A stretch of DNA of 35,335 nt from contig JAIEFH010000142.1 in assembly GCA_029067025.1 (NCBI GenBank), forward strand, positions 1 to 35,335, in the 5' to 3' direction. The translations under genes were made by a program, and so were the position numbers. Source of the stretch: Oscillospiraceae bacterium. Its GTDB lineage: Bacteria > Bacillota > Clostridia > Oscillospirales > Oscillospiraceae. Positions within the stretch are counted from its first letter, which is position 1; every line of letters begins with the position of its first letter. Below the pieces are notes generated by a model. The model saw only the letters and a program-made list of their open reading frames with translations, did not search any database and was not told the origin of the DNA. Shown here piece after piece: positions 18,697 to 33,909 of the stretch.

Positions 18697-20802
18697 ATGC
18701 TCAAACGCATTTTAAACAATAGCATAGCGTTGTTCGTGGTGGTCGTGGTCATGTTCCTGTTCATCCCGCTGCACCCCGTGATTCTGGATATCCTGCTCAT
18801 CATCAACATCGGGCTGTCCATCATGATCCTGATGATCACCATGAACATCTCGGAGGCGCTGGATTTCTCCATTTTCCCATCCCTGCTGTTGATTACGACG
18901 CTATTCCGGCTGGGCATGAACGTGTCCAGTACCCGGATGATCCTCACCACCGGCTATCCCGGCGAAGTCATCGAAAACTTTGGTCGGCTGGTCACCCAGG
19001 GCGATATTGTGGTAGGCTTCGTGATCTTCTTTATCATCGTGCTGGTGCAGCTCATTGTCATCACCAAGGGCGCGGAGCGCGTGTCCGAAGTGGCCGCCCG
19101 CTTTACCCTGGACGCCATGCCCGGCAAGCAGATGGCCATTGACGCCGACCTGTCCTCCGGCCTCATTGACGAGCAGCAGGCCCGTATCCGCCGTGAGAAG
19201 ATTCAGAAGGAAGCCGACTTCTACGGCGCCATGGACGGCGCCACCAAGATCGTCAAGGGCGACTCCACCATGTCCATCATCATCACCCTCATCAACCTGG
19301 TGGGCGGTATCATCATCGGCATGGTGGTCAAGGGCGGCAGCATCGGCGACGTGATGCAGCAGTACTGCATCCTGACCATCGGCGACGGCCTGGTGTCCCA
19401 GATCCCATCCCTGATGATCTCCACCGCCACCGGCATGATTGTCACCCGTTCCGTGTCCGAGGGCAGCCTGAACGTGGACGTGATCTCCCAGTTCAAGGCC
19501 CAGCCCCGAGCCATTATGACCACCGGCGTTATCCTGCTGTTCCTGGGTGTCATTCCCGGTACGCCCACCATCCCGCTCCTGGTGGGCGGCGCGGCCCTGG
19601 TGGGCGGCGGATTCTTCGTTACCCGCCAGATGAGCGCCCAGCAGCAGGCGGAGGCCGCCGCGGCCCAGGCTCCCGCCGAGCCCCCTGAGCTGACCGCGCC
19701 CAGCGAGAGCGACTACTACAAGGACATCAACAACGTATATACCCTGCTGTCGGTGGAGCCGGTGGAGATGGAATTCGGCTACAGCCTCATTCCCCTGGTG
19801 GACGAGAGCCACGGCGGCAAGCTCATCAGCCGCATCGTCATCTTCCGGCGGCAGTACGCCCAGGATATGGGCTTTGTCATCCCGTCCATCCGCCTGCACG
19901 ACGGCTCCGCGCTGGGCACCAACCAGTACTGCATCCGCATCAAGGGAGAAGTGGTGGCCCAGGGCGAGATCCTGGTGGATTACTATCTGGCTCTCGAGCC
20001 GCCCAACCCCCTGGGCGAGATCGACGGCATCGAGACCATCGAGCCGGCCTACGGCATCCCCTCCCGGTGGATTCTGCCGGAGAACAAGGAGATGGCGGAG
20101 ATCTACGGCTACAACGTCATCGACCCGCTGTCCGTCATGCTGACCCACCTGGCGGAGACGGTGAAAAAGCACGCCTACGAGCTGCTCAACCGGGCCGAGA
20201 CCATCCGCCTGGTGGACAATCTGAAGCAGACCTCCCCGGAGCTGGTGGAGGAGGCGGTTCCCGCCATCATCCCCTACTCCAAGCTGGAGAAGCTGCTGCG
20301 CAACCTCCTTCAGGAGGGCGTGCCCATCAAGGATCTGGCCACCATCGTAGAGACCGCCGCCGACGCCTTCTCCCAGGGCCGGGATCTGGATATGGCCACC
20401 GAGCAGGTGCGCGGCGCCCTGGCCCGCACCATCACCCGCCGGTTCTGCGAGGACGGCCAGCTCCGGGTCATCACCCTGGACGCCGAGGTGGAGAAGAAGA
20501 TCATCTCCTCCCTCACCCGGAACGAGCAGGGTGTGTACCTGGCCATGGGCCCCGACCTGATGCAGACCATCATCGCCCAAATGGCGGAGCATCTGAAAAA
20601 ATTCGGCGATCTGTCCCAGACGCCGGTCATCCTGGTCAGCCAGGTGATCCGGGGCTATTTCAGCAAAATGATTACCCAATTCTACCCCAATGTCTACGTG
20701 CTGTCCTTCAATGAGATTACCAACACCGTGCAGATCCAGGCCTTGGGCAACATCACCGACCAGACGGCCGCCCAGACCCAGAGAAGGGCGGTGGGCACAT
20801 GA
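18697..20802 (+). CDS. flhA: Flagellar biosynthesis protein FlhA
   Basis: 701 aa; LLLITTLFRLGMNVSSTRMIL, RFTLDAMPGKQMAIDADLSSGLIDEQQARIRR, C-terminal cytosolic domain. Confidence 0.97.
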   Translation: MLKRILNNSIALFVVVVVMFLFIPLHPVILDILLIINIGLSIMILMITMNISEALDFSIFPSLLLITTLFRLGMNVSSTRMILTTGYPGEVIENFGRLVTQGDIVVGFVIFFIIVLVQLIVITKGAERVSEVAARFTLDAMPGKQMAIDADLSSGLIDEQQARIRREKIQKEADFYGAMDGATKIVKGDSTMSIIITLINLVGGIIIGMVVKGGSIGDVMQQYCILTIGDGLVSQIPSLMISTATGMIVTRSVSEGSLNVDVISQFKAQPRAIMTTGVILLFLGVIPGTPTIPLLVGGAALVGGGFFVTRQMSAQQQAEAAAAQAPAEPPELTAPSESDYYKDINNVYTLLSVEPVEMEFGYSLIPLVDESHGGKLISRIVIFRRQYAQDMGFVIPSIRLHDGSALGTNQYCIRIKGEVVAQGEILVDYYLALEPPNPLGEIDGIETIEPAYGIPSRWILPENKEMAEIYGYNVIDPLSVMLTHLAETVKKHAYELLNRAETIRLVDNLKQTSPELVEEAVPAIIPYSKLEKLLRNLLQEGVPIKDLATIVETAADAFSQGRDLDMATEQVRGALARTITRRFCEDGQLRVITLDAEVEKKIISSLTRNEQGVYLAMGPDLMQTIIAQMAEHLKKFGDLSQTPVILVSQVIRGYFSKMITQFYPNVYVLSFNEITNTVQIQALGNITDQTAAQTQRRAVGT

Positions 20803-21641
20803 GCGCGGGCGTTGTCCGGCGGAGATACACCCCGGACGAGGTCGAGGCCATGCCCACCCCCGAGCTGCTCTCCCTCTACAAGCAGACCGGGGATGAGGAG
20901 CTGAAGTGGCCCCTGGTGCTGCGGTATGAGGGCCTCATCAAGAGCGCGGCGCTGCAGATACGGGGTGTGTACAGCAGCTTTGCCCAGGTGGACGACATCG
21001 TCAGCGAGGGCATCCTCACTCTGCTCAGCTCCATCGACAAGTTTGACCCGGACAAGGGCATCAAGTTTGAGACCTACGTGGCCAAGCGTATCCGCGGCAT
21101 GGTCATCGACCTGGCCCGGAAGCAGGACTGGCTGCCCCGGAATATCCGGCAGCGGGCCAAGGAGATCGACGCCGCTGTGTCCAATCTGGCCAATGAGCTG
21201 GGGCGCTTCCCCACCGACCACGAGGTGGCGGATCACTTGGGTATGCCCACCGACAAGTACCAGAAGGAGGCCGCCCGGGTGGCGCTGAGCAACACCCTGT
21301 CCCTGGACGCGCTGATGGACGCCCGGGATTTGGAGGGCCACCGCTTTGAGGTGTCCTCTGAGGATCCCACCGTCCAGCCGGAGACTGTGCTGGAGGATCA
21401 GGAGCTCCAGCAGACCCTGGCCCAGGGCGTCGCCGCCCTCCAGGAAAACGAGCAGATCGTCTTGTCCCTCTATTATGAGAAAAACCTTCATATGAAAGAG
21501 ATCGCTCAGGTGATGGGGGTCAGCGAACCCCGCATCTCCCAGATCCACTCCCGGGCCATCCAGAAGCTGCGGGATCATATGGGCGCGTACATGAACAGCG
21601 AAGCCCCACAGAAAACCTCTAAAAAGCGGAAGAAGGTATGA
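20799..21641 (+). CDS. fliA: RNA polymerase sigma factor FliA/SigD (sigma-28, WhiG type)
   Basis: Region 2 VDDIVSEGILTLLSSIDKFDPDKGIKFETYVAKRIRGMVIDLARKQDWLPR; region 4 ENEQIVLSLYYEKNLHMKEIAQVMGVSEPRISQIHSRAIQKLR; ATGA overlap with flhA. Confidence 0.95.
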   Translation: MSAGVVRRRYTPDEVEAMPTPELLSLYKQTGDEELKWPLVLRYEGLIKSAALQIRGVYSSFAQVDDIVSEGILTLLSSIDKFDPDKGIKFETYVAKRIRGMVIDLARKQDWLPRNIRQRAKEIDAAVSNLANELGRFPTDHEVADHLGMPTDKYQKEAARVALSNTLSLDALMDARDLEGHRFEVSSEDPTVQPETVLEDQELQQTLAQGVAALQENEQIVLSLYYEKNLHMKEIAQVMGVSEPRISQIHSRAIQKLRDHMGAYMNSEAPQKTSKKRKKV

Positions 21642-25273: not shown

Positions 25274-26563
25274 ATGAGCGGCAAATATATCGTGCGGCAG
25301 CCCATCCGGGATCATGAGGGAAGTACCATCGGATATGAGATTCTCTACCATGGGGCCAATCAGGCCTTTAGCAGCGACAGCTCCACTTCCAGCGCGGAAT
25401 TTGCCGCCGCCAACACGATCTATAATTTTCTTACCGACAACAGCCCCAAGGTGCTGAAGGGCACGCTGAATTTTATGACCTTCACCACCATGCTGCTGAT
25501 GAAAAAGACGCCCAGGCTTTTTGATAAAAACGACCTGGTCATCCAGATCGACGACGCGGTGATTATCCACCCGCTGTCCATGCACCTGGTGCGCCAGTAC
25601 GCCAACGAGGGCTACCGCGTCGCGGTGAACGACTTCCAGTTTACCCCCCGGTATCTGTCCCTGCTGGACGACATCCATTTCATCAAGATCAACGCGAAAA
25701 ACGCCAGCGAGGTCACCATCCGCAACACGGTGGAGATCGCCCATAGCATGAACATCAAGTGCATTGTCACCCATGTGGACGACCCGCATACGTACCAGCG
25801 GGCGGTGGCTTTGGGGGCGGACGGGCTGGAGGGCTCCTATGTGGCCGACAAGCTCACCACCCGGGCCCACAGCAGCGCTTACATCCAGAGCAACTTCTTC
25901 CAGCTCATGGTGGCCGTCACCCGGGATGAGCCCAATGTGGAGGAGATCGAGCAGCTCATCGCCGCGGACGCCAGCCTGACCTACGGCCTGCTGAAAATGG
26001 TCAACTCCGCCTATTTTGCCCTGCGCCACCGGGCCACCACCATCACCCAGGCCATTATGACCCTGGGCCTGGGGCAGCTGAAGCAGTGGATCTACCTGCT
26101 CAGCGCCAGCAACGCGGATAACGAGTTGGATTCCGGCTCGGAGGAGTTCTTGAAGCGCTCCTTCATGCGGGCCAACTTCTGCAGCGAGCTGATGAACTAC
26201 GCCAAGGATATGCCCATCTCCAAATCCGAGGGCTATCTGATGGGGATGTTCTCCACCCTGAACTACCTCATCGACGCCCCCCTGGAGGAGATCCTGGCCG
26301 AGGTGCCGGTGGCTGAGGAGATCAAAGCCGCCCTGCTCCGCCACGAGGGGCGCTGCGGCAAGCTGTATGAGCTGGTGCTCAGCTACGAGGCGGCGGACTG
26401 GGAGCGCATCACCGTCCTGGCCGAGGAACTGGGCATCCCGGACAACATGATGACCAGCGTCTACTTCATCTGCATGGAAAATGTAAATACCCTTTGGGAG
26501 CAGCTTACCAATCCATACCCCCGGCAGGGCGAGCCCGCCGAGGCGGAAACACCCGCAACCTGA
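25274..26563 (+). CDS. EAL-HDOD domain signalling protein (EAL domain apparently degenerate)
   Basis: YIVRQPIRDHEGSTIGYEILYHG...AVNDFQFTPRYLSLLDDIHFIKIN (EAL-like) followed by HDOD region IAADASLTYGLLKMVNSAYFALRHRATTITQAIMTLGLGQLKQWIYLL. Confidence 0.9.
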   Translation: MSGKYIVRQPIRDHEGSTIGYEILYHGANQAFSSDSSTSSAEFAAANTIYNFLTDNSPKVLKGTLNFMTFTTMLLMKKTPRLFDKNDLVIQIDDAVIIHPLSMHLVRQYANEGYRVAVNDFQFTPRYLSLLDDIHFIKINAKNASEVTIRNTVEIAHSMNIKCIVTHVDDPHTYQRAVALGADGLEGSYVADKLTTRAHSSAYIQSNFFQLMVAVTRDEPNVEEIEQLIAADASLTYGLLKMVNSAYFALRHRATTITQAIMTLGLGQLKQWIYLLSASNADNELDSGSEEFLKRSFMRANFCSELMNYAKDMPISKSEGYLMGMFSTLNYLIDAPLEEILAEVPVAEEIKAALLRHEGRCGKLYELVLSYEAADWERITVLAEELGIPDNMMTSVYFICMENVNTLWEQLTNPYPRQGEPAEAETPAT

Positions 26564-26590
26564 CGGGATAAAAGCTGGCTTTAGGACAAA

Positions 26591-26629
26591 AAAATCTCTG
26601 GCGGATCGTTCAAGTCCGCCAGAGATTTT
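26591..26629. terminator. Bidirectional intrinsic terminator between convergent genes
   Basis: AAAATCTCTGGCGGA / TCCGCCAGAGATTTT, 15-bp perfect arms, 9-nt loop, A/T tracts at both ends. Confidence 0.92.
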
Positions 26630-26637
26630 CCATCAGG

Positions 26638-27279
26638 TTACTCCCGGCCGTGGTGGGGGCGCTCCATGACCAGCTTGCAGGCCTGGAGCAGCTGGGCCGT
26701 GATGTCGCTGCTGAACTTGCCCTCGTACACCGTCAGGCGCGGGATCATATCTCCCCGCTCCAGCACCACATACTTGGGGGGCAGATGGTTCAAGGTGAGG
26801 GCCTTTACGTCCTCCATGCAGCGCTCACAGCTGCACAGGCCGAACATCTGCACATATTTGGGGGCTTTTTCTTCCACCAGCACCTGCATGACGTTCATGT
26901 AGCCGGGGTAGACAGGGAGACGGGACTCATCCCACTTGGCGGTTTCCTCGGCCTCGGGCTGAGCGGCGGGCGCGGGTTCTGGCGACCGCTGGGGCTGGAC
27001 GGCGGCCACGGGCTCAGGGACAGGGGCCGGTTCCGGCTGGGGCTGAGGCGCCGGCTGCTGGGGGGCTGCCTGCTGCGAGGCCATCTCGCCCTCCAGCGCG
27101 TCCTCCAGCGCACTCTTGATCTGCACCGACACGGCGGCGTCCGGAGCTATGGAGGCGGCAATGGGGGTTTGGGCGGCGGGCGCGGCGGCCTCCTCGGGCG
27201 CGGCGGCGGGATCGGGCTTCTTGCTGAGCAGGTTCATCACCCGCGCGGTCTTGCTGGTTTTGTCGTTCTTAGATGCCAT
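26638..27279 (-). CDS. ComFB-domain protein with N-terminal basic peptide and Ala/Pro-rich linker
   Basis: C-terminal MNVMQVLVEEKAPKYVQMFGLCSCERCMEDVKALTLNHLPPKYVV matches the late competence ComFB family (Cys cluster, LNxLPPKYV). Confidence 0.85.
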   Translation of the reverse strand: MASKNDKTSKTARVMNLLSKKPDPAAAPEEAAAPAAQTPIAASIAPDAAVSVQIKSALEDALEGEMASQQAAPQQPAPQPQPEPAPVPEPVAAVQPQRSPEPAPAAQPEAEETAKWDESRLPVYPGYMNVMQVLVEEKAPKYVQMFGLCSCERCMEDVKALTLNHLPPKYVVLERGDMIPRLTVYEGKFSSDITAQLLQACKLVMERPHHGRE

Positions 27280-27296
27280 GACGCTGAACTCCTTAC

Positions 27297-28109
27297 TTAA
27301 TTGAAGAATTTGGAGATATATTTCTGCTTAAATGACTGCTTGGGCCGCGGGAAGCGCTCTCCGGCCACCGCGTCCACGATCTCCTGGAAGTCCTGGGCGG
27401 GACGGGAGTCGGGCTGATAGGTGAGCACGCTCTGCCCATGGGCGGGAGCCATAGCCACACCCACGCCCCGGTGGATCTTGGCCTGGAACACCTGGCTTCC
27501 AAGCTGCCCGGCCACCTCCTGGGCCAGCTCCAGGATGTCCTTGGACAGGGTAAGCCGGCCGTTGAACTTGTTGACCAGGATGCCCAGCACCTTCAGATGG
27601 GGATTGTAGGTGGAGCGCACGGTTTCGATGGTCTCCTGGAGCTGGGTGATGCCCACCAGGCTGAGTACCTCCGCCTCCATGGGGACGATCAGCCCGTCGG
27701 AAGCCACATAGGCGTTGACGGTGAGGATGTTCAGGGCAGGCGGTGTGTCGATGATGATGAAGTCGTACTGGGAGCGCACGCCGGACAGCTTGTCGGTGAG
27801 CAAAAACTCCCGGCGGGGCATGGTGAACTCCACATCGGCGGCGGACAGCATAATATCTGAGGGCAGGATGTCGCCGTACTCCGTGGACTGGATGGCCTGC
27901 TCGATGGGACAGCTTCCCTGGAGTACGTCGTAGACGGTGCTACCCGAACCGATGTCCAGCCCCAGGTTGAAGCCCAGGTTGCCCTGGGGATCCAGGTCGA
28001 TGCCCAGAACCTTGGCCCCGCGCTGTTGGAGGCCGGATACCAGGGCGGCGGCGGTGGTGGTTTTGCCCACGCCTCCTTTTTGGTTGGTGACGGTAATGAT
28101 TTGAGTCAA
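27297..28109 (-). CDS. ParA/Soj-family ATPase (TTG start at 28109 preferred)
   Basis: TQIITVTNQKGGVGKTTTAAALVSGL, GIDLDPQGNLGFNLG, DFIIIDTPPALNILTVNA; strong RBS AGGGGAGGG upstream of TTG. Confidence 0.93.
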   Translation of the reverse strand: MTQIITVTNQKGGVGKTTTAAALVSGLQQRGAKVLGIDLDPQGNLGFNLGLDIGSGSTVYDVLQGSCPIEQAIQSTEYGDILPSDIMLSAADVEFTMPRREFLLTDKLSGVRSQYDFIIIDTPPALNILTVNAYVASDGLIVPMEAEVLSLVGITQLQETIETVRSTYNPHLKVLGILVNKFNGRLTLSKDILELAQEVAGQLGSQVFQAKIHRGVGVAMAPAHGQSVLTYQPDSRPAQDFQEIVDAVAGERFPRPKQSFKQKYISKFFN

Positions 28110-28151
28110 GGAATATTCCCTCCCCTTTACAAAAACATTGGAGAAAAGTCT

Positions 28152-28178
28152 TAAGTTTAATATACTACAGGTCGATAA
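28152..28178 (+). promoter_or_regulatory. Sigma-28 (FliA/SigD) promoter upstream of fliD
   Basis: TAAG-N15-GTCGATAA versus consensus TAAA-N15-GCCGATAA (two mismatches, exact spacing), in an intergenic region before fliD. Confidence 0.82.
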
Positions 28179-32054: not shown

Positions 32055-33014
32055 TTATGTATATGTGTCGGGGGTGGACAGCGCCCATAGCGGCGCGCCG
32101 TTGCTCCGGGCGGAGGACAGCTCATCCAGAATGATCTGGGGATCCCAGAGCTGGAGACTGCGCTCCAGGCTGTTGGGGTCGGCCACCAGCACTTCTCCGC
32201 TGAGCGTTGCCCCGCGGATGAGGATAAAGTGCCCGGCCTCGGTGAAGTGGCCGGGGCCCACATGGGCCACCAGCAGCTTGCCGTCCCAGAGGGCTCGAAG
32301 CATTTCGTCCACAGTGCGCTGGGTGAGGCTCTCCGCCTCCAGTCCAAAGGCCTGGGCCGTGCCTGTGACAATAGAGTCATAGGAGCCGCTTCGGCGGGCC
32401 CAGTGGCCATGATCCGCCGCCCAGGCGGCCATTGCGGCGGGGTCGGTGTCCGTGTCTGTCATGGTGGCGATTGCCATGGCCATGACCGTGGGGCCGCAGC
32501 CATAGGGGCCGATGGGATCGGTGCCGTAGAGCTGCTCCGCCCATTCCTCATCTGACTGGCAGAAGTAGACGATGTCCATCGAGCCGCCGGTGAGGATCTG
32601 ATGGCCATCCACCTCCAGCACCTCGGTGATGGGGGGAGCGGTGGCCGGCGGCTGAGACTGGGGTCCTTCGGTAGAAGGCGGCGTCCTGCCGGGGGCTTGG
32701 ACGATTTCCCGAGGGGCGGTGAACTCCGCCCAGGCATCCGCCGCCCGGCCTGCCTGTTCGGCGATCCCAGCGCCCACCGACTGGCAGAACCGCCCGACCT
32801 CCAGGCAGAATTCCCCGGCGGCGTTCAATGCGGCTTTGCCGGTGTCCGCTATCACAGCGGCGGCGTAGCGGGCAGGGGCTACGATGCGATCGTAGGTCGC
32901 CGGGGCGAAATGACGGCAGGCAGCCAGCTCTACCCCGCCGATACATAACAGGGCCAGCAGGGCCGCCAGAGCGATATGCCGCCCCAGATGCCTTGACCCG
33001 TTGTTCTTCTTCAT
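32055..33014 (-). CDS. Membrane-anchored or secreted C39-like (papain-fold) peptidase
   Basis: N-terminal signal/TM (HIALAALLALLCIGGVELAAC), then DIVYFCQSDEEWAEQLYGTDPIGPYGCGPTVMAMAI (Cys), TEAGHFILIRG (His), VADPNS (Asp/Asn). Confidence 0.85.
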   Translation of the reverse strand: MKKNNGSRHLGRHIALAALLALLCIGGVELAACRHFAPATYDRIVAPARYAAAVIADTGKAALNAAGEFCLEVGRFCQSVGAGIAEQAGRAADAWAEFTAPREIVQAPGRTPPSTEGPQSQPPATAPPITEVLEVDGHQILTGGSMDIVYFCQSDEEWAEQLYGTDPIGPYGCGPTVMAMAIATMTDTDTDPAAMAAWAADHGHWARRSGSYDSIVTGTAQAFGLEAESLTQRTVDEMLRALWDGKLLVAHVGPGHFTEAGHFILIRGATLSGEVLVADPNSLERSLQLWDPQIILDELSSARSNGAPLWALSTPDTYT

Positions 33015-33053
33015 CTGCCCACCCCCTTAAAATGCGACTTGTTTCTGTTTGAT

Positions 33054-33081
33054 ATTATAGCAGATGCCAGCGTATTTTCAA
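33054..33081 (-). promoter_or_regulatory. Sigma-A-type promoter for the C39-like gene
   Basis: Minus strand TTGAAA-N16-TATAAT upstream of the start at 33014. Confidence 0.65.
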
Positions 33082-33132
33082 TGGAAAGAAATTTGAACCC
33101 GTTCAGGCTGTCCGCGGAGCCAGGAGAAGCTT

Positions 33133-33909
33133 ATGCCCACCATTTATCTTGAGCACGTTTCAAAATTCTATAAGCCCAAGCGCCGGAAAAAGGGCCCGGT
33201 ACACCAGGAAATGGGTGTGGAGGACGTGGATCTGACCATCCGCCAGGGAGAGTTCGTCTTTGTGGTGGGGGGCAGCGGCGCGGGAAAAAGCACGCTGCTG
33301 CGCCTGATTACAGGGGAGGCGAAGCCCAATCAGGGGAAGGTTTACCTGGGCGACCGGGATCTGAGCCGGGCAATGGCGCTCAGCCGGAATCGAATGTCCA
33401 TCCTGTTCGGGAAGATCTGGCAGGATCCGACCCTGATCCGAAAAAAAACCATCGGCGAAAATCTGGCCCTGGCTTCCCGGATCGCCGTGGGGCGGGAGAA
33501 ACCGCAGTTGGTGGACATCCGCGTCAAGAAGGTGCTGGGCCTGGTGGGGATGAAGGGCGTGGAGAGCAAGTACCCGGTGGAGCTGTCCATCGGCGAGTGC
33601 CGCCGGGTGGAGCTGGCCCGGGCCATGATCGGCAGCCCGCCAATTCTGATTTTGGACGAGATCACGGCCAATCTGGACGACGACTGCATTTGGGACACCC
33701 TGCATCTGCTCAACGACGTGAACCGCCGGGGCACCACCGTCATCATGGCCACCCACGACAGCCAATATGTCAACATCCTCCGCCGCCGGGTCATCACCAT
33801 GTCAAACGGCCGGGTGGTTGGGGACGAGAAAAAGGGAAAATACGGCGATGTGCTGGAGAAAGACCGGAAGCCTCTGGTCTTCACCAAGCTCAGAACCGAT
33901 TTGATATAA
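33133..33909 (+). CDS. FtsE-like ABC transporter ATPase
   Basis: Walker A VVGGSGAGKSTLLRLITGE; Walker B ILILDEITANLDDD; signature region LSIGECRRVELARAMI; H-loop MATHDSQYV. Confidence 0.88.
   Translation: MPTIYLEHVSKFYKPKRRKKGPVHQEMGVEDVDLTIRQGEFVFVVGGSGAGKSTLLRLITGEAKPNQGKVYLGDRDLSRAMALSRNRMSILFGKIWQDPTLIRKKTIGENLALASRIAVGREKPQLVDIRVKKVLGLVGMKGVESKYPVELSIGECRRVELARAMIGSPPILILDEITANLDDDCIWDTLHLLNDVNRRGTTVIMATHDSQYVNILRRRVITMSNGRVVGDEKKGKYGDVLEKDRKPLVFTKLRTDLI

Follow-up and report, generated by a model that had tools for sequence, protein, structure and literature searches.

A ParA-type ATPase and a ComFB-domain protein form a conserved gene pair in flagellar clusters of Clostridia

What does a ParA-type ATPase do inside a flagellar gene cluster when the gene beside it encodes a protein whose domain is named for competence? 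ATPases of the ParA/MinD group place many bacterial machines or count them, and the systems differ by partner. The stretch of DNA analyzed here (the window, 35,335 nucleotides of one contig from an Oscillospiraceae bacterium) carries such an ATPase gene and a ComFB-domain gene on the minus strand between fliD and an EAL-HDOD/cheV region, an arrangement given in the initial annotation and confirmed by open reading frames and Pfam; the remainder of the window forms a flagellar and chemotaxis cluster, and no Rfam RNA was detected in it. The pair occurs inside the flagellar gene clusters of many motile gut bacteria, and we found no published report of it, nor any literature linking ComFB to ParA or to flagella, as judged by titles, abstracts, and term counts.

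The parA-type gene (27297..28109, minus strand) encodes 270 amino acids from a TTG start at 28109, preceded by AAGGGGAGG, to a stop at 27297, and the partner gene (26638..27279, minus strand; 213 amino acids) begins 17 nt past that stop and is served by a separate AAGGAG ribosome site (27289-27294, minus strand). A hairpin with a T-run at 26590..26630 (minus strand) lies 3′ of comFB, before the convergent EAL-HDOD gene; it is strongly folded (−25 kcal/mol, z −6.5), is not listed in a consensus terminator scan, and gives the two genes the look of a small operon. This two-gene unit is divergent from fliD-fliS-fliT. A sigma28-like promoter, TTAAGTTT-N12-GTCGATAA (28151..28178, plus strand), reads towards fliD and has a counterpart in 25 of 62 related intergenic regions; no such site facing parA was found in the parA/fliD intergenic region, and sigma28 control of parA was rejected. 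The EAL-HDOD gene (25274-26563) is conserved beside comFB, and its EAL part is probably degenerate, given that the product matches the EAL profile over positions 115-234 alone. Genes for a C39-like peptidase and an FtsE-like ABC ATPase follow fliT in the window (32055-33909) and in many related loci.

The ATPase belongs to the ParA/MinD group by its Pfam AAA_31 match (5e-53), its ParA fold, its catalytic aspartate, and the deviant Walker A motif KGGVGKTT with the signature lysine; K11-T17, D38, and D40 are invariant among 45 sequences. In fold searches with its AlphaFold model (mean pLDDT 92), chromosomal ParA/Soj proteins rank first among solved structures (E down to 2e-28), followed by McdA and MinD, with FlhG ranking lower. 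In Myxococcus xanthus ParA, the pocket that receives the ParB peptide is formed by V116, L150, L152, L155, L187, and L192 (PMC12462528). When these residues were mapped through PDB chain 8RAY, taken as M. xanthus ParA from a D-to-A change at the expected place, five of the six positions proved hydrophobic or aromatic in the window's ParA: V93, L126, I128, V131, and Y168 correspond to V116, L150, L152, L155, and L192, while L187 corresponds to T163. L126 is invariant in all 45 relatives, and a hydrophobic peptide pocket at the ParA dimer interface is thus mostly kept.

The DNA-binding side of the protein is another matter. Mutation of R238 abolishes DNA binding in M. xanthus ParA, and by a single pairwise alignment in which the surrounding motif is clear, the equivalent residue here is G217; position 217 is non-basic in 43 of 45 sequences and basic only in two, both of family f6, so that the basic residue expected of a nucleoid-binding chromosomal ParA is lacking. 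R185, the counterpart of M. xanthus R209, is kept in 42 of 45. The clade is also acidic, with a median core pI of 4.92 vs 6.22 for the Soj-like protein of the same genome. Together, the loss of the R238-type arginine and the acidity of the clade disfavor a ParA gradient on the nucleoid, and with it the nucleoid-based form of the positioning role that the initial annotation had proposed. The product does carry KGGVGKTT and end in RPKQSFKQKYISKFFN, as had been noted, and this basic, amphipathic tail (residues 254-270; 27300..27350, minus strand) is lineage-specific: it was seen in the genus of the window and in close relatives, not clade-wide. A universal MinD-like membrane tail was considered, since SFKQKYISKFFN looks amphipathic, but variation of the tail among clade members led us to reject it as a general feature.

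The partner had been described as a basic N-terminus, a linker rich in A, P, Q, and E, and a ComFB domain. That architecture stands, with the refinement that conservation in the N-terminus covers K10-L18, not the full 21 residues. The ComFB domain (residues 126-208; 26656..26904, minus strand) matches PF10719 over residues 129-208 (E 1.7e-17, 63.7 bits against a cut-off of 25) and contains a CxCxxC motif at 149-154, whose cysteines C149, C151, and C154, candidate ligands for the four-cysteine zinc site of the family, are invariant in alignment A4. By profile and by fold the protein matches Bacillus subtilis ComFB (4WAI) and the Synechocystis CdgR:c-di-GMP complex (8HJA), the latter ranking after B. 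subtilis ComFB as a fold match. A role in competence was rejected on the grounds that the flanking genes are flagellar and that the Bacillus competence ComFB model NF052654 scores the protein at 31.9 bits, far under its equivalog cut-off of 120. In the structure model the ComFB domain is confident, whereas the N-terminal helix is short and of low confidence.

That N-terminal segment is the part that follows the ATPase. The motif KTARVMNLL (residues 10-18; 27226..27252, minus strand), with a helix predicted at low confidence over residues 10-17, generalizes to [KR]Tx2V[ML]x[LV][LIVM], which is present in 90 of 91 ParA-linked ComFB proteins of the main clade and in none of 49 without an adjacent ParA; a narrower pattern, [KR]T..V[ML].L[LIVM], covers 86 of the 91, and in the other four V replaces the L that comes first after the variable position. 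Composition-matched shuffles of the linker produced the motif 0 times in 18,200. Within the genus, pN/pS is 0.024 for the motif, 0.158 for a second conserved linker island around AVSVQIKSALEDALEGEM (27070..27138, minus strand; predicted helix 48-70), and 0.211 for the ComFB domain, making the motif the most constrained of the parts compared, even though the region before the ComFB domain ranges from about 40 to 490 residues across homologues. Six loci (L030, L053, L054, L055, L059, and L140) instead share a different short peptide, of DKDLMFSKIMP type, at the partner's N-terminus, and the ParAs of those present in the tree form one group (SH-aLRT 93), so that peptide type follows ParA type. 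The earlier idea that the partner's N-terminus contacts ParA is therefore well supported at the level of sequence: like the partner in ParB-type systems, the protein has a short basic and hydrophobic N-terminal peptide, which tracks parA under extreme constraint and would face a mostly hydrophobic pocket.

The pairing of the two genes and their flagellar association are conserved over several families, bearing out the view of them as a two-gene ParA/partner module of flagellar clusters; a lack of conserved adjacency, which the initial annotation had listed among the findings that would refute it, was not observed. Among 99 relatives from which the comparison within the window's genus (g1) was drawn, a long-form ComFB gene is present in 19 of 19 genomes with FlhA and in 0 of 22 without, with parA directly upstream wherever the contig reaches. 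In a survey of 394 genomes of the order, the adjacent pair was found in 34, all of them FlhA-positive, as are 69 of the 394 overall. A scan of named genomes yielded 80 loci, including those of Flavonifractor plautii ATCC 29863, Oscillibacter valericigenes Sjm18-20, and [Clostridium] viride DSM 6836, and where these loci reach past parA the divergent neighbor is fliD. Beyond the order, the pair was recognized with the same neighbors in two genomes of the class (G602 and G681), the best 30 hits having been checked for parA; the others, in short reading frames, are of the stand-alone type. Co-occurrence with flagella is partly trivial, because a module inside a flagellar cluster would vanish with it. 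More telling is that the flagellar neighbor varies by lineage, being fliD-fliS-fliT, flgN-flgK-flgL (divergent from the pair in G140, G044, and G390), or flgB-flgC-fliF-fliG (directly downstream of the pair in G371 and G413).

In Firmicutes, flhF and flhG often lie near flhA and the flagellar sigma-factor gene. Within the window (18697-21641) the latter two overlap by 4 bases, which leaves no room for flhF-flhG at that site, and flhF and flhG are missing there; no FlhF above the curated cut-off was found in the window's genome. Across the order, FlhF scores above the cut-off in 17 of 69 flagellated genomes, and the pair was found in 0 of 17 FlhF-positive vs 34 of 52 FlhF-negative ones (Fisher p about 1e-6), a distribution that follows family lines. 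This exclusion is suggestive of replacement, and the pair may control flagella in lineages without the usual FlhF/FlhG placement proteins, possibly standing in for them; because about 15 flagellated genomes lack both, such replacement is not obligatory. The ParA is not itself an FlhG orthologue, a candidate we rejected: it is not encoded with flhF, for which the genome has no product above the cut-off, and the MinD-like FlhG proteins, six of them in the tree, lie apart on long branches.

Evidence for a nucleotide input comes from homology and from gene order. Cyanobacterial ComFB/CdgR proteins bind c-di-AMP and c-di-GMP (PMC12313861). In six loci of family f26 (L166, L168, L170, L171, L172, and L173), parA-comFB is immediately preceded, in the same orientation, by a diguanylate cyclase gene with a GGDEF domain; the products are 661-711 amino acids long, and the three assigned by Pfam all have GGDEF and PAS domains, with HAMP in two. 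Such adjacency is stronger evidence than the mere presence of GGDEF and DAC genes, which all 25 carriers checked possess and which is weak evidence because these genes are common. With the CdgR:c-di-GMP fold match, the six upstream genes lend support to the link, and gating of the partner by a cyclic dinucleotide is plausible.

We propose that the ParA-type ATPase would dimerize on ATP, while the ComFB protein, itself a dimer joined at the C-terminal domain, would display two basic, hydrophobic N-terminal helices that dock in the dimer-interface pocket used by ParB and so stimulate ATP hydrolysis. Input would come through the ComFB domain, with c-di-GMP or c-di-AMP as its probable ligand; this domain and the second linker helix could jointly connect the module to a flagellar client. 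By cycling, the ATPase might then control the timing, location, or number of flagellar basal bodies or hook-filament units assembled. FlhF/FlhG do this in relatives, and pair carriers have no known agent for it. Docking, ATPase stimulation, ligand binding, and output are what we infer from the conserved features. O. valericigenes, which carries the module, has peritrichous flagella (PMC3558957), so polar placement is not implied. The data favor a flagellum-dedicated ATPase switch over nucleoid-gradient positioning. Our judgment is evenly balanced on whether the two genes form a ParA/partner module devoted to the flagellum, with ComFB as its input and an ATPase cycle governing flagellar building. 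The fuller version, a cyclic-dinucleotide-gated ParA system that replaces FlhF/FlhG in a large group of motile gut bacteria and in which the ComFB dimer would be both receptor and ParA activator, is possible and put forward tentatively.

In another reading, the pair would be an ATPase switch that positions nothing and instead regulates flagellar gene expression or export by a logic like that of FleN/FleQ. Speaking for it are the absence of the R238-type arginine in 43 of 45 sequences and the acidity of the proteins, which count against a nucleoid gradient, and the frequent location of the pair next to late hook or filament operons with the chaperone genes fliS/fliT or flgN; no transcription factor is consistently adjacent, however, and two f26 loci place the pair ahead of early rod and MS-ring genes, leaving this reading rather unlikely though worth keeping in mind. 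Positioning of chemosensory arrays rather than flagella, in the manner of ParC/ParP or PpfA/TlpT, would explain why cheV, cheC, and cheD are close in most Oscillospiraceae loci and in G441, but it fits poorly with the f26 loci, where the neighbors are flgB-flgC-fliF-fliG or the GGDEF gene, and with family f7 and G044, where they are flgN-flgK-flgL; nor is any array core gene a consistent recognized neighbor, cheA and the receptors lying outside the search. We regard it as improbable.

Far more doubtful still is an ordinary chromosome or plasmid partition ParA that sits next to a competence gene and shares no function with it. Its Soj-like sequence and fold and the name of the partner's domain would suit such a protein, yet the genome has a separate Soj-like ParA of only 41% identity, the motif is confined to ParA-linked ComFB, and flagellar loci of different families retain the pair. 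This reading, already largely contradicted, was rejected on the separate Soj-like gene and the flagellar linkage.

Several known systems are comparable to the pair. With ParA/Soj-ParB it has in common the fold, the deviant Walker A, a dimer-interface pocket for the peptide whose hydrophobic residues are mostly kept, and a partner with a short basic and hydrophobic N-terminal peptide (PMC12462528), which resembles ParB peptides in character but differs in consensus; it departs from that system in having a ComFB-domain partner without a recognized ParB domain, in the loss of the R238-type arginine, and in its flagellar location. McdA/McdB, which positions carboxysomes, likewise joins a ParA-type ATPase to a cargo partner, and the first 20 residues of McdB are necessary and sufficient for binding (PMC12204374), but the partner domain and cargo are different and the pair's ParA has the standard KGGVGKT Walker A. 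FlhF/FlhG (FleN) also devotes a ParA/MinD-superfamily ATPase to flagella, whereas FlhG is MinD-like and far away in the tree, its partner is the GTPase FlhF, and the two systems never co-occur. The ParA/MinD ATPase BcsQ of the BcsQ/BcsR/BcsE cellulose secretion system is part of a complex with c-di-GMP bound, according to the title of entry 6YBB; there the c-di-GMP-binding partner is BcsE instead of a ComFB protein and the role is cellulose secretion, and the window's ParA scores below the BcsQ cut-off. The cyanobacterial CdgR/ComFB proteins share the partner's fold and act on pili, competence, or cell size, with neither a ParA partner nor the N-terminal motif reported for them in the literature found.

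A ComFB-based partner would thus be, as far as we found, a new type of ParA partner, through which a second messenger could be coupled directly to a ParA-type ATPase; if the fuller version is true, c-di-GMP would directly set the ATPase cycle governing flagellar building. The pair would offer an answer to how flagella are controlled in flagellated lineages without FlhF, and would give a role to a competence-named domain that tracks flagella in these Clostridia. In a survey of 391 genomes of the class, ComFB domains, mostly stand-alone, were found to track flagella, 109 of 113 ComFB-positive genomes having FlhA vs 147 of 391 overall. Counting against the flagellar reading, no recognized flagellar neighbor was found within about 10 kb for the pairs of G255 and G353 or for a more distant pair in G065. 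The ParA of this last locus (L164) and that of G107 (L163) are more distant relatives (33-36% identity) encoded beside a ComFB protein, and position 217 is basic in both.
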